DNA of 64,000 nucleotides from an uncultured Monoglobus sp. (GTDB lineage Bacteria > Bacillota > Clostridia > Monoglobales > Monoglobaceae). Location of the stretch: contig CANQKC010000007.1 in assembly GCA_947624305.1 (NCBI GenBank), positions 1-64,000 of the forward strand, given 5' to 3'. A program made the position numbers and the translations under genes. The notes beneath the pieces were generated by a model, which had not been told where the DNA came from, searched no databases, and worked only from the letters and a program-made list of their open reading frames with translations. Below, one piece after another: positions 1 to 32,328 of this stretch. The number at the start of each line of letters is the position of its first letter. The stretch's first letter is position 1.

Positions 1-110
1 CGACGGTGTCGGAGGCTCAGGCGACGGTGTCGGAGGCTCAGGCGACGGTGTCGGAGGCTCGGGCGACGGTGTCGGAGGCTCAGGCGACGGTGTCGGAGGC
101 TCGGGTGTTG
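1..110 (-). repeat. 21-bp tandem repeat encoding Pro-Glu-Pro-Pro-Thr-Pro-Ser units
   Basis: About five in-frame copies of a 21-base unit sit at the left edge. On the minus strand they read PEPPTPS over and over, directly after an InlB-B repeat ending in YAVWAPEATP. The array forms a proline/threonine-rich spacer in the giant surface protein, and it probably continues past the window edge. Because the period is a multiple of three, copy-number change by slippage would alter spacer length without breaking the frame. Confidence 0.9.
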
Positions 111-3100: not shown

Positions 3101-5144
3101 GATGCGGCAGTGCCGTAGTCAAGCAAAATACCATAAACATTTATAGTTCCGCTGCGACGTTGTAATTTATATGTAGTATTTGCCTTTATATCAAAAGAAG
3201 CTACACCATTAATTGGTTCTGGTCTTACATTAGAAGCAGTACCATTTTCATACATATCAAATTTGCCGGTATTGCAGAACAAAACTGCTTCTCCATCTGC
3301 ACTTGCTGTAAATGAAATTGTAATACCAGAATTACTTGTAATTTCTACATATTTAGTAAATGAATATGTCTTTCCATTATAAGTAGTTTGAACAGCGGGT
3401 TCTGCTTCTTTTATGCTGCTGTCACTCACATTTTCAAATGTAAATACTCCACTTGGATCGCCATTATTAAAGTTTGCAAAATCAAATGTCGGCTCACCTG
3501 TCTCGCCGCCGGGTGCGGGTGTGGGAGAAGGCTCCTCTGTGGGTGTGCTCGCTTCCGCTGTCGGCGAGGGAGAGGGCGTTTCAACGTCGCCGCCCGCCTC
3601 GGGTGTCTGCGTGGGAGTCGAAGGCTCAACGCTTCCGCCGTTGAATGTTATATCAATGGCAAGCAGCCTTGTTTCCCCGCTACGTCTTTGTATTTCATAT
3701 GACGAGCCCGCTTTTAAATCAAATACAACCTTTTTAACATTATTGTTTTTATCGTCGTTAGCTATGTTCTCATAGCTTTTATTAAGATCGGTCCCGCCTT
3801 CTTTTACATAAATTGTACTACCTTCCGTTGTGAATACAAGAACGCAGGTTCCATCCTTTGGCGGCGTTATATAAAGTAGGCCGTCTGAGTTCATCTTCAC
3901 ACCCTTTGTGAAAGAAGTACCATTATACATAGTGCCCGAAATATCTTCACTCGATGTATTTTTATCCGTAACAGATGCTTTCGCCCCAAATGATATAAAA
4001 CCTTCAATGCCTTGAAGCTCGCTCACACTGACATTATAGAACAGTGAATTCGCGTCCGGGTCAAAGGTCGGAGCCGGCGCGGTTGTAGTCGTGGGCTTAC
4101 TTGTGGGAGAAGTGCTGCTGCCGCCAAGCGACTTGTTCACATAATATCTGTAATCGTTTTTGTCGTTTGTGTAATCCTTATCGGTCACAAGTTTTCCGTT
4201 TTCATATGTAACGTTTGACTTAAGGCCGTGGATAAGACCGGTGTCGGGGTCTATAACAAACGGCGAGTCGTTTTTATAAAAATCGCTGTCGGGATTCCAC
4301 TTTACATAACCGTCAACATTTCCCCAAGGCGCGTCCGCGATCTGGTCGGGATCAAAAGCCGTACAGTCGATAAACAGATCCGCGGTGATGTTTGAAAACG
4401 CCTGTGTTCCGATCGTTTGAACACTTGCGGGGATCTTTATGTATCTTAAAGCGTCGCACTCATAAAACGCTCTCGCGCCGATCGAGGTGAACGCGGCGCT
4501 CGTGGGCAGTTTCACCGTTGACAGATTTTTGCAGTTATAAAAGCAGTTCTCGGGAATAGCCGGCAGATTTGCGGGAAGATTAACCGTCGTCAGAGCGGTG
4601 TCGTTTCCGCTAAAGCAGCCGAAGCCGAGCTCGGTTACCGACTCGGGCAGAGTGATCGTCGCAAAATCATTGGACGCAAAAGCTCTGGCGCCTATTTTTG
4701 TTATTTGGCAAGGGTCTGTTTCAGTGTTCGCGAATTCAACCGTTTTAAGCTCACAGCCCGAAAACGCGTCATCCGCGATTTCCTTAACGGGGTATTTTTT
4801 TACATTATCGCCTTCGCCTGTCTGCAAATATGACGGAAGAACGATCTCAACGGGAGAACCGTTCGCGCCCTGAACATAGTTATATCTGTTGATTATCGCG
4901 TACGTTCCCGTCGGGTCAAGCGACGCGGACAGATATGTATTGATGTCAATGGGGTCGCCGCCGGCAATTGGCGTTGCCGTGCCGTTGCTGCCGGTGAATA
5001 CCGCGTCGGTATCAGCCGCCGTCAGGGCTATGCCGTCATTAAGCTGACCCCCCCCGACGCAAAAATCGTCATTCCGGGAAGAGTGGTCGCCACAAGCATA
5101 AGCGCCAGCAACATGGACAAAAGCCGTCTTGTCTTTCTCTTCAT
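1..5144 (-). CDS. Giant BspA-like LRR / InlB-B repeat surface protein, out of frame at a poly-G tract, 3' end beyond window
   Basis: The start is ATG at 5144, eight bases after AGGAGA. It begins a signal peptide (MKRKTRRLLSMLLALMLV) with a Thr-Leu-Pro-Gly end like its neighbour's. In that frame translation stops at TAG 5030-5028, after 38 codons. Removing one G (or adding two) in the 8-G run at 5048-5055 joins the signal peptide to a frame open from 5031 to the window edge, about 1,670 codons. That body has BspA-type leucine-rich repeats (about 4900-4350), two beta-sandwich-like modules each holding a YxxQRRSG motif (about 4080-3120) with a Pro/Thr linker between them (3590-3500), a second LRR block (about 3000-1560) and at least three InlB-B repeats ending in Y-A-V/L-W. 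The architecture matches the 8785-aa neighbour, so the C-terminus probably carries more repeats and a wall anchor. The role is likely adhesion or surface structure. The frameshift may be phase variation, true inactivation or a base-call error. Confidence 0.8.
5048..5055 (-). repeat. G8 homopolymer at the signal-peptide/mature-protein junction
   Basis: Eight consecutive G on the minus strand (C8 on plus) follow codon 29 of the surface-protein gene. With 8 G the frame ends at TAG 5030-5028. With 7 or 10 G it reads on through the whole LRR/InlB-B body. Homopolymers of this length in the 5' part of surface-protein genes are a known substrate for slipped-strand phase variation, and also a common sequencing error. 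The sequence alone cannot separate these. Confidence 0.9.
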
Positions 5145-5362: not shown

Positions 5363-8300
5363 TTATTGCGCGTATACCGAGCCTTGGACTCCGGCGCTGC
5401 GCGATGTGGACCATTCTTTTTCAAGCTGTGCCCAGTCGCGCGGCTGTCTGATCTCCGTCCATTTCTCGTTGGTTTCGCCTTCCGCTCTCTCGTAGAAGTG
5501 AGAGTTTGTCGCTTCCTGAACCGCTGTGTAGTACCACGCGCTCGGGTCGCTGTTGTCGGTAAATGTTATCATTCCCGCGAGCAGACCTTCGACGGTCACA
5601 TGTCTGTTCAGTATGTTGTTGACAAGCGTCATCGCTTCGGCTCTCGTGATGTATTGATCGGGTCTGAAGGTTCCGTCCTCATAGCCGTTTATCCAGCCTC
5701 TCGCCGCGGCTCTTCTGATATAGTCCTCGGCCCAGTGGCCCGATACGTCGCTGAACATGTCAACTCCGTCATACTCGCCGCTGTCGAACCTCGCCGCTAT
5801 CGCCGCGAACTCGGCTCTTGTGATGAACGCGTCCGGCATGAAGCTGCCGTCCGGATATCCGGTCAGAACTCCCGCGCTGCTCATGGTCGAAACCGCGTTG
5901 TTGGACCACAGATCCGCCGAAACGTCGCTGTAGCCGTTGGTCTGTGACCAATACGCTCTGCGCGACTCGTCGGTCAGCATTCTGAAGAATATCGTCGCAA
6001 CCTCGTCGCGGGCTATGTTGTTCTCGGGACGAACGTCGCCCTCGGGATAGCCAACGATGTAGGCGAAGTGATCCTCGTGGTTGAGCTGCGGCGTGTTGCC
6101 GCCTGTACCGCTTCCGCCGCCTCCGGTGCTCGGAGCGGGCGTCGGCTCGGGCGCCGCCGTCGGGGTGGCTGTCGGTGACGGATACCATCCGCCTCCGCCG
6201 CCTCCACCGCCGCTTCCGCCGCCGGTGGATACAGGCTTCCATATCGCGTAGAGCGTAACTCCGTCAGTCGGCATCAGGAAGGTGTCTCCCGCGGTGTATT
6301 CCGCGTCTGACGCCTTCGCGTTCTTGCTCCAGCCGAGGAAGTTGTAGCCGCTTCTTGTCAGCTTCTCGCTTGTTACCGTTACGGTCTCGCCCGCGTCGTA
6401 AACATTGCTGTCAACCGGGGCTTTGACGCCTGCGGCGCCGTTCACGTCATAGATGACCTGCTTGTAATCCGGAATTCCGTCGGGATATACCGCCGGGCCG
6501 GTCGTGGGCGTCGGCGCCGCGGTCGCGTCAGGGTCGGGTGTGACGCTCGGGTCAGCTGTGGCCGCCGGAGGAGGCGTTACCGCAGTTGTTCCGCCCTTGC
6601 TGTCTACGGCCCATACCGCGTATACCGTGATGTCGCTGTCACTGAATACGACCTCGTCAATTATCTCGGCGGCTGCCTGCTCGGTTCCGCTCGTGATAAG
6701 CTTATCGCTCTTTTTGAGGCTCCAGCCGAGGAATATCGCGCCGGTTCTTGTCACGCTGCCGTCCTTAAGAGCCGCAACGCTGCCGCTTCCGTAGTCAGTG
6801 TTGTCAACCGGTACCTCGCCGCCGTCTGCGCCGTTGCCGTCGTATGTCAGCTTAAGCGCGGGCACCTGCGTGGGCTGCGGCTCCGCCGTAGGTTCTTCCG
6901 TGGGCTCCGCCGTGGGTATCGGCTGATCCGTGGGTATCGGCTCATCCGTGGGTGTCGGCTCATCCGTGGGAGCCGGAGTCGCATCCGGCTCGGGCGTTGC
7001 ATCGGGTGAAGGCGCGGGTGTCGCCTCGACCGCGTCCCAAATAGCATACAGAACATCAAGTCCGTCACCCTTGGTGAAGAAGTCTCCAGCCTGATAGAGG
7101 CTGCCGTCGGGTTTGGTTCCGGAGCCGTTGTTATAGTTCAGGCTCCAGCCGAGGAACTCGTGGCCCTCGCGAACGGGGGTCTCGCTTGTTACCTCAACAT
7201 CGTCGCCCGGAACATACTCGCCCTTGTCAACGGGAACGTTTTCAACCGGCTCTCCGCCGCTGTTGCCGTCGTAGCGAACCTGCTTGTAATCGGGTATGCC
7301 GTCGGGATCGGTCACGCTCGGATCGGGGTCTCCGCCGTAGCTGTCAGCCGCCCATACCGCGTACACGTCAACGCTGCCGGTCAGCGGGTCAATGTCTGTT
7401 ATGATCTCGGGCATCGCTTCATGTCTTAAGAATACCGTTGTGTTCTGCGTCAGGCTCCAGCCCGCGAACGCCGCTCCGTCTCTGGTAAGCTTCAGCTTTC
7501 CGTCGGGATCAAGCGTTACCTTTTCACCGTATGTCCATGTGTTTCCGTAAACCGCGCTGTGCTCAACCGAGTCAACGGTGATCTCGCCGCCGTCGCCGTT
7601 ATAGGTGATCGCGCCCTCGTTGGCGTGATACGTCAGCGACAGCTCCGCGCCGCTCCACTGAGCCACAAGCACAAGGCCTGTGGGCGGAATGTCGGTGATC
7701 ACTTCGTCGGGCTGATACAGCTTGCTCGCGGGATCGTCCTTGATCTTCCAGCCCGTGAAGCTGTAGCCTCCCTCTCTGCTCGGAACCGCTCCGGCGACCG
7801 TTCCGACGCCGTCGGTTACAAGCGATGGATTGTGAGGCATGCCGGTTACAGTGCTTTCCTCTCCCGCGGGAACGCCCGGCTCATAGAGTATCTGCGCGTA
7901 ATCCGCGATACCGTCGCCGTTGCTGTCCTCAGCCCATACAGCGTACATCGTCATTATCATGCCTTCAGGATCGTCGAGCGTGAACGGAACCAGATCGCCA
8001 GTCTTTATCAGACCTGCGGGCGCCTGCGTTACATTGCCGTTCGCGTTCAGCAGATCGTCCGCGACCGCCTTGTTGGCCGTCCAGCCGACGAACGCCGCTC
8101 CGCTCTTTCTAAGTTCGCCCTCGTTGGAGGCGTTGATCTCATCGGTGAGCTCGTACGCCACGGGATCGACAGGCGCGCTGCCCTCGGTCGCCGTCGTGCC
8201 GTTATACACAACGTTGTAAACTCTGCTGTCGGGCTCCCAGATCGCGTAAAGCACATCGAGGCCGCCGGTCTTTGTGAAGGTCTCGCCCGGCTGATAGAGG

Positions 8301-32080: not shown

Positions 32081-32096
32081 CAATTAAAACAAGTCA

Positions 32097-32105
32097 CCCC
32101 CCCCC
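32097..32105 (+). repeat. C9 homopolymer in the intergenic region
   Basis: Nine C in a row, followed by GATCGATTCTCGGGAGGG. It is non-coding and lies about 380 bases upstream of the giant gene. It is the second long G/C homopolymer associated with the giant surface genes. Length variation here would not shift a reading frame. Confidence 0.8.
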
Positions 32106-32328
32106 GATCGATTCTCGGGAGGGATGGGTGTTCGGCGCAGTATGCCCACTTTGACACACTACTACACATAGTATATTGTACCAAAAACATATCCGTTTTT
32201 CAACTGATTATTGTACAAAATTAACCTTAATTTTTTGTCAGAAATGACAATAAAATATTAATTTTTCCAATGTCAAGCACAATATATATGTAATTACAAG
32301 AAAAATTTACACTATCTTTATTTTACTA

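Follow-up and report, generated by a model that had tools for sequence, protein, structure and literature searches.

A run of eight G residues at the signal-peptide end of a giant surface-protein gene from an uncultured Monoglobus sp. is most readily understood as a slipped-strand contingency switch, a reading to which we assign a probability of about 0.9. Slippage during replication would add or remove G residues in the tract. Counts that are multiples of three would join the signal peptide to a giant protein composed of leucine-rich repeats, CBM77, Flg_new repeats and an S-layer anchor, and export would then be possible; other counts would end translation within about 40 codons, and the assembled G8 would represent the OFF state. 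The locus would be one of a genus-wide set, many members of which would be switched in the coding frame. The eighteen other tracts of at least eight G in the genome, together with the classic contingency-gene contexts, fit this reading. From this arrangement we infer slippage as the cause, switching in the population and export.

Tract and reading frames

The DNA analysed (the window) comprises the initial 64,000 nucleotides of contig C7, and the gene lies on its minus strand. The start codon is the ATG at 5144–5142, preceded at a distance of 9 nt by an AGGAG ribosome-binding site (5158–5154). The start codon and the signal-peptide coding part (MKRKTRRLLSMLLALMLVATTLPGMTIFA) occupy 5144–5056, and the G8 tract, with C and T as its flanks, follows at 5055–5048, at codon 30, where the signal peptide (recognised by eye) ends. 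As assembled, the frame comprises 38 codons and closes at a TAG (5030–5028). The body frame (5049–1) continues without a stop for 1,683 codons, up to the contig edge that cuts it. In all of this the anatomy drawn in an earlier note on this DNA was right: it had placed eight G residues at the signal-peptide junction, the TAG at these same positions and some 1,670 undisrupted codons behind them.

When the G count was varied by script, G6, G9 and G12 joined the signal peptide to the body, and G7, G8, G10 and G11 stopped at codons 34, 38, 35 and 39, respectively. The earlier note had named 7 or 10 G as the opening lengths, which is an arithmetic slip. A change in length alters the frame of an otherwise intact gene, one of the properties by which a contingency locus is recognised.

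Gene body and contig edge

The body specifies BspA-type LRR_5, CBM77 and Flg_new repeats, to which the intact 2,308-residue ortholog of a related species (G010) adds SLH domains. Contig C7 begins inside a 21-bp repeat coding for PPTPSPE (1–102, minus strand), which breaks the assembly. This repeat is also found at the end of contig C26, along with an open 694-codon frame that matches residues 1762–2308 of the G010 ortholog (89%) and has its end within the SLH region; the C-terminus of the gene, with its SLH domains, very probably lies here. Since the two contigs share the repeat and the open frame matches, the further stops or frameshifts left of the window against which the earlier note had warned are very probably absent, the join of C7 to C26 not being a physical one. 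With a signal peptide (by eye), LRR_5 and SLH (from the G010 ortholog and the matching C26 end), the product has the features of an SLH-anchored BspA-type LRR surface protein.

Orthologs in the genus

A protein search of 12 genomes of the genus revealed seven orthologs in seven species, the alignments starting at the first residue behind the tract. In all seven a tract lies behind the signal peptide at the same site, its length being 8, 9, 8, 10, 9, 9 and 8 in G000 (the present genome), G010, G006, G003, G009, G002 and G004, respectively. The comparison with related genomes that the earlier note had proposed thus does reveal variation in length. The frame as assembled continues in the three G9 orthologs, among them the full-length G010 gene, and stops after 35–40 codons in the other four; the bodies are open in all seven. 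In the remaining five genomes the search gave just partial, repeat-type matches. Length also differs between species at other loci (G9 in L033 against G8 in L161 and L163; G9 in L048 against G8 in L162). With one genome per species, all of these differences are between species.

The differences between bodies peak at the third codon position in six of six pairs, in which six of the seven orthologs are represented. The body of the present gene differs from that of G010 at 405, 339 and 712 first, second and third positions over 1,646 codons. For G000 and G006, both of them out of frame, the corresponding values are 231, 198 and 376 over 828 codons, which upholds the earlier description of the body as undecayed. 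As for the reversible switch proposed there, both states, three joined and four broken, do occur over open bodies; reversibility within one population is our inference.

It is quite unlikely that the G8 form is nevertheless expressed, whether through a –1 shift of the ribosome on G GGG GGG, through slippage of RNA polymerase or from a start at ATG 5151. Translation from this last codon would follow the body frame with no signal peptide, but the codon stands just 2 nt from the ribosome-binding site. The sequence TCG GGG GGG is of the slippery type X XXY YYZ; just 3' of the tract, however, the predicted structure (–20.4, against –20.0 with a standard deviation of 3.0 for shuffled sequences) gives no sign of a frameshift stimulator, and the three G9 orthologs require no slippage. 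Leaky expression of G8 would in any case be compatible with a switch.

Less probable again is an indel from sequencing or assembly, in which case the tract would in truth be G9 and the gene always on. The tract is the sole G8 in a genome in which 17 of 19 tracts are G9, and G-tracts are hard to read: in Bifidobacterium their lengths differ from those of the annotated genome, according to the excerpted text of PMC9187656. Against this, independent assemblies give G8 at the same site in two other species and G10 in a third, and the contigs of one relative bear names of the NODE type, a short-read style; an A7 run within the 8,785-residue ORF of the window causes no frameshift. Lengths of 8–10 G in orthologs with open, constrained bodies argue against a lone assembly error and against a dead gene. 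The frame is indeed broken as assembled, but a pseudogene is hardly credible with 1,683 open codons in the body and 694 more on C26, a coding pattern of divergence that holds even for two species with the gene out of frame, and four such species, in each of which the gene would have to have died anew and independently at this one tract.

Upstream giant ORF

Upstream of the gene lies a paralogous giant ORF of 8,785 residues (31720–5363, minus strand), the coding start of which is without a tract; no comparable coding tract was found in the seven giant paralogs examined, this one included. Its 5' leader contains a G9 tract (32105–32097, minus strand), 376 nt before the start, in the 3' arm of a hairpin (32095–32130), and a promoter-like TTGAAA-N17-TACAAT (32203–32175, minus strand) is found upstream of the tract. 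Matching hairpins precede the giant-protein starts in G006, G009, G004 and G002 (G7), and one is present at a contig end in G010. The energies of these leader hairpins shift with tract length, and no clear switch was seen in them. The ORF also contains an 18-bp tandem repeat (6910–6970).

G-tracts in the genome and the genus

The 2.68-Mb genome contains 19 G-tracts of at least eight residues, namely 17 G9, one G10 and one G8. G/C runs of 4, 5, 6 and 7 numbered 485, 73, 6 and 0, and those of 8, 9 and 10 numbered 1, 17 and 1, in a 199.5-kb sample made up of stretches chosen for holding tracts, its 19 tracts being all of those in the 2.68 Mb. The tracts are longer than composition predicts and are not due to chance. 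A single length in 17 of 19 tracts is tighter than free slippage might give, and this is a point against the switch. MutS (MutS_V) is present in all 12 genomes of the genus, so that slippage need not match the frequency seen in repair-poor bacteria; loss of mismatch repair as the cause of the tracts is rejected on this MutS result.

Across the genus the tracts are located in genes for surface proteins, acyl- and cytidylyltransferases and DNA methylases, or in 5' leaders; glycosyltransferase-like proteins are also among the targets. Eighteen tract-bearing proteins, with an intact ortholog as a nineteenth, were compared with Pfam. The coding-tract matches were to MTTB, Acyl_transf_3 (three proteins), CTP_transf_3 (two), an amine-oxidoreductase-like protein, N6_N4 methylase, Methylase_S, N6 methylase together with Methylase_S, PMT_2, polysaccharide deacetylase, PemK-like and FctA; four of the 18 (L043, L082, L088 and L106) had no Pfam match. 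G9 lies inside a type III-like methylase (L104), a type I specificity subunit (L119) and a methylase-specificity fusion (L094), and DNA methylation may possibly be switched through these three tracts. A secreted-protein gene of the present genome (L044; C26, 1–6000) has an in-frame G9 and a second break about 100 codons further on, its G010 ortholog (L082) being intact. In a PemK/MazF-like toxin-antitoxin gene (L120; G002, contig C42) the G9 is near the 3' end.

The flanks of the tracts are strongly biased. C and T enclose 17 of the 19 tracts of the present genome; in a hand count over 60 genomes, the exact G9 had these flanks in 67 of 85 cases within the genus against 4 of 35 elsewhere. C-Gn-T tracts counted by hand in the genus numbered 5, 11, 67, 7, 6 and 1 for n of 7 to 12 (97 in total). 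After removal of look-alikes from 62 fetched tracts, C preceded 30 of 34 and T followed 29 of 34, most of these loci having been chosen as exact G9. C-G9-T was present in 32 of 391 Clostridia genomes, the strongest outside the genus being G390, with 12 copies against none of the reversed pattern. Within the genus just one genome, G008, is assembled as one contig (2,757,678 bases), and it lacks C-G9-T.

In G390, a member of another Clostridia family, most of the ten C-G9-T tracts fetched (L169–L178) lie, by eye, between promoter-like boxes; one example is TTGACA-AAC-G9-TGA-TATAAT, with a spacer of 15, and the arrangement resembles classic promoter phase variation. In three related genomes (G194, G375 and G236; L182, L183 and L187) C-G9-T stands two bases upstream of a TTGACT box. 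Two loci, L088 and L102, have a signal peptide with the reverse-complement motif (GTA-C9-GA, VPPPDT), and the element therefore occurs in both orientations relative to the gene.

Unrelated coding frames, both gene strands, leaders and the –35/–10 spacers of another family all show these flanks and this length, and from this arises the more speculative notion that C-G9-T(A) is a recognised DNA motif, with a dedicated activity in Clostridia making or keeping nine G as a general switch cassette; we consider this unlikely. Shared flanks and a sharp mode at nine, in coding tracts and leaders alike, pose a testable question on the birth and upkeep of tracts.

Two other accounts of the tracts were considered. 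G9 as a fixed insert does not fit, as tract-free relatives differ in length: the acyltransferase relative (L202) is of equal length, the oxidoreductase relatives (five loci) are 6 nt shorter and the methylase relative (L216) is 27 nt shorter; the leaders L143 and L144 have peptides of equal length. Selection for the ON state is an unlikely cause of the mode at nine, G9 being in frame in most coding tracts and out of frame in 15 of 18 G9 leaders.

A leader family as candidate attenuator

In Streptococcus gallolyticus, a leader stop 39–49 bp before a terminator results in low expression of the Pil1/Pil3 pili, while leader peptides ending close to, within or beyond the terminator give high expression, as was demonstrated with variants and by removal of the start codon or the terminator (Danne 2014, PMC3894217, in excerpt). 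We think it probable that a family of leaders in Monoglobus is a poly-G version of this attenuator. Its secreted-protein genes would be switched one step before the coding frame, by a tract in the leader ORF. Depending on tract length, the ribosome would leave 23–81 nt before the terminator or reach a stop inside its stem, where it should block the hairpin and let transcription proceed to the gene. Such an effect of tract length on transcription is predicted here by analogy with Pil1.

A 351-base leader query matched 28 places in four of the 12 genomes of the genus. The leader ORF and the terminator are present in 26 of these hits (both are lost in L147 and L148), and 23 of the 26 leaders have a tract of 6–12 G, three being tract-free. 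The sequence elements of the Pil1 type are present, namely promoter, ribosome site, leader ORF with a repeat, terminator before a surface gene and a frame-dependent stop. The promoter, TTGACA-N17-TA(A/T)AAT, was present in 22 of 23 leaders examined, the exception (L137) being cut by a contig end. The intrinsic terminator has a 14-bp stem (–25.7 kcal/mol) followed by a T-run. In each of the 23 tract-bearing leaders, one frame ends at a stop in a constant position of the 5' stem arm (GGCATAG or GGCATAA); the motif used to find the terminator demands TAG or TAA, so that the presence of the stop is by construction and the openness of the frame back to the tract is not. The other frames stop 23–81 nt earlier. 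Which residue class of tract length leads to the stem varies between leader copies; as assembled, six of the 23 tract-bearing leaders reach it and 17 do not. Among the tract-free leaders, L139 and L143 reach the stem stop, and L132 reads through the hairpin.

Changes in the stem are compensated and keep the stop (CATAGGG/CCCTATG and CATAAGG/CCTTATG). Codons after the tract differ at 346, 398 and 378 first, second and third positions, with no third-position excess, which rules out a conserved leader peptide. The absence of stops after the tract, where 2.9 were expected (P about 0.06 by a simple substitution count), is suggestive only, and both points tell against too strong a claim for the leaders. 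Comparison of one leader (L040) with known RNA families gave no match near any gathering score. Big_2 domains were found in four of ten leader-controlled proteins, and no domain match in the other six.

For this family only, the short ORF might be a separate gene for a small protein, closed by a terminator of its own, the secreted-protein gene having its own promoter. The terminator does lie 360–1,481 nt before the main gene in those 21 leaders, out of 23, for which a main start was found, and stop codons are often located near terminators. This explanation is nevertheless unlikely: the peptide is not conserved by codon position, promoter-like matches near the 21 main genes reach at most 9 of 12 letters as against 11–12 in 22 of 23 leaders, and the main gene of L132 begins just 52 nt past the T-run of a terminator that the leader ORF reads through.

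Two further features of the leaders were noted. Folding of eight (L121–L128) revealed another terminator-like hairpin (GTATCAAA..CTTATCCGC..GCGGGTAG..TTTGGTAC, followed by a T-run) between the leader promoter and the leader ORF, as if each had two gates. Long shared intergenic repeats, for example GTAGGGGCGGATATTATCCGCCCG, separate leader terminators from main genes, as in L084 and L101, and are lacking in L132.

Comparison with known systems

If the genus-wide set is what it appears to be, a gut commensal lineage diversifies its surface in the manner of Campylobacter or Neisseria, which would bear on phage attack, on immune recognition and on the comparison of strains from consensus MAGs, in which OFF genes look broken. 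The sequence data suggest that the whole lineage shuffles its surface via G-tracts. In the open-licence PMC literature no paper combining Monoglobus with 'phase variation' was found.

The poly-G contingency genes of Campylobacter and Neisseria comprise, as in Monoglobus, a surface, sugar-modifying and DNA-methylating repertoire; Monoglobus differs in possessing MutS. Its flank bias towards C-G9-T is strong. The leader family also resembles the pyrBI attenuator of E. coli, in which the leader ORF overlaps the terminator and a ribosome close behind the polymerase keeps the hairpin from forming; the signal for pyrBI is nucleotide supply, whereas the leaders would respond to tract length. In Clostridia, the class to which Monoglobus belongs, the best-known route to phase variation is DNA inversion, and CwpV and other switches of Clostridioides difficile invert a DNA segment, in contrast to the slippage proposed here. 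CwpV is likewise a phase-variable surface protein in Clostridia (PMC2784873, in excerpt).

The sortase-dependent pili of Bifidobacterium breve provide a close parallel: in this gut commensal too, a coding G-tract in a surface-structure locus joins a first ORF to a second, and at one of the two loci studied nine G are what joins them, as at the present locus (PMC9187656, excerpted text). Relative to what is described there, Monoglobus belongs to a different phylum, has 19 tracts of at least eight G in its genome and carries the present tract at the signal-peptide end of an SLH-anchored giant protein. The leaders share with Pil1/Pil3 a repeat in the leader ORF and a frame class that sets the position of the stop relative to the terminator (PMC3894217, excerpted text). 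They differ in using poly-G in place of the GCAGA repeat, in having the stop codon at one fixed position in the stem and in forming a family of 9–10 loci in two genomes; if correct, the Pil1 principle would then apply to a homopolymer and at 9–10 loci in one genome. With a locus like the coding tract of B. breve and leaders like Pil1, the Monoglobus system would be a new variant of known mechanisms, on an unexpected scale.
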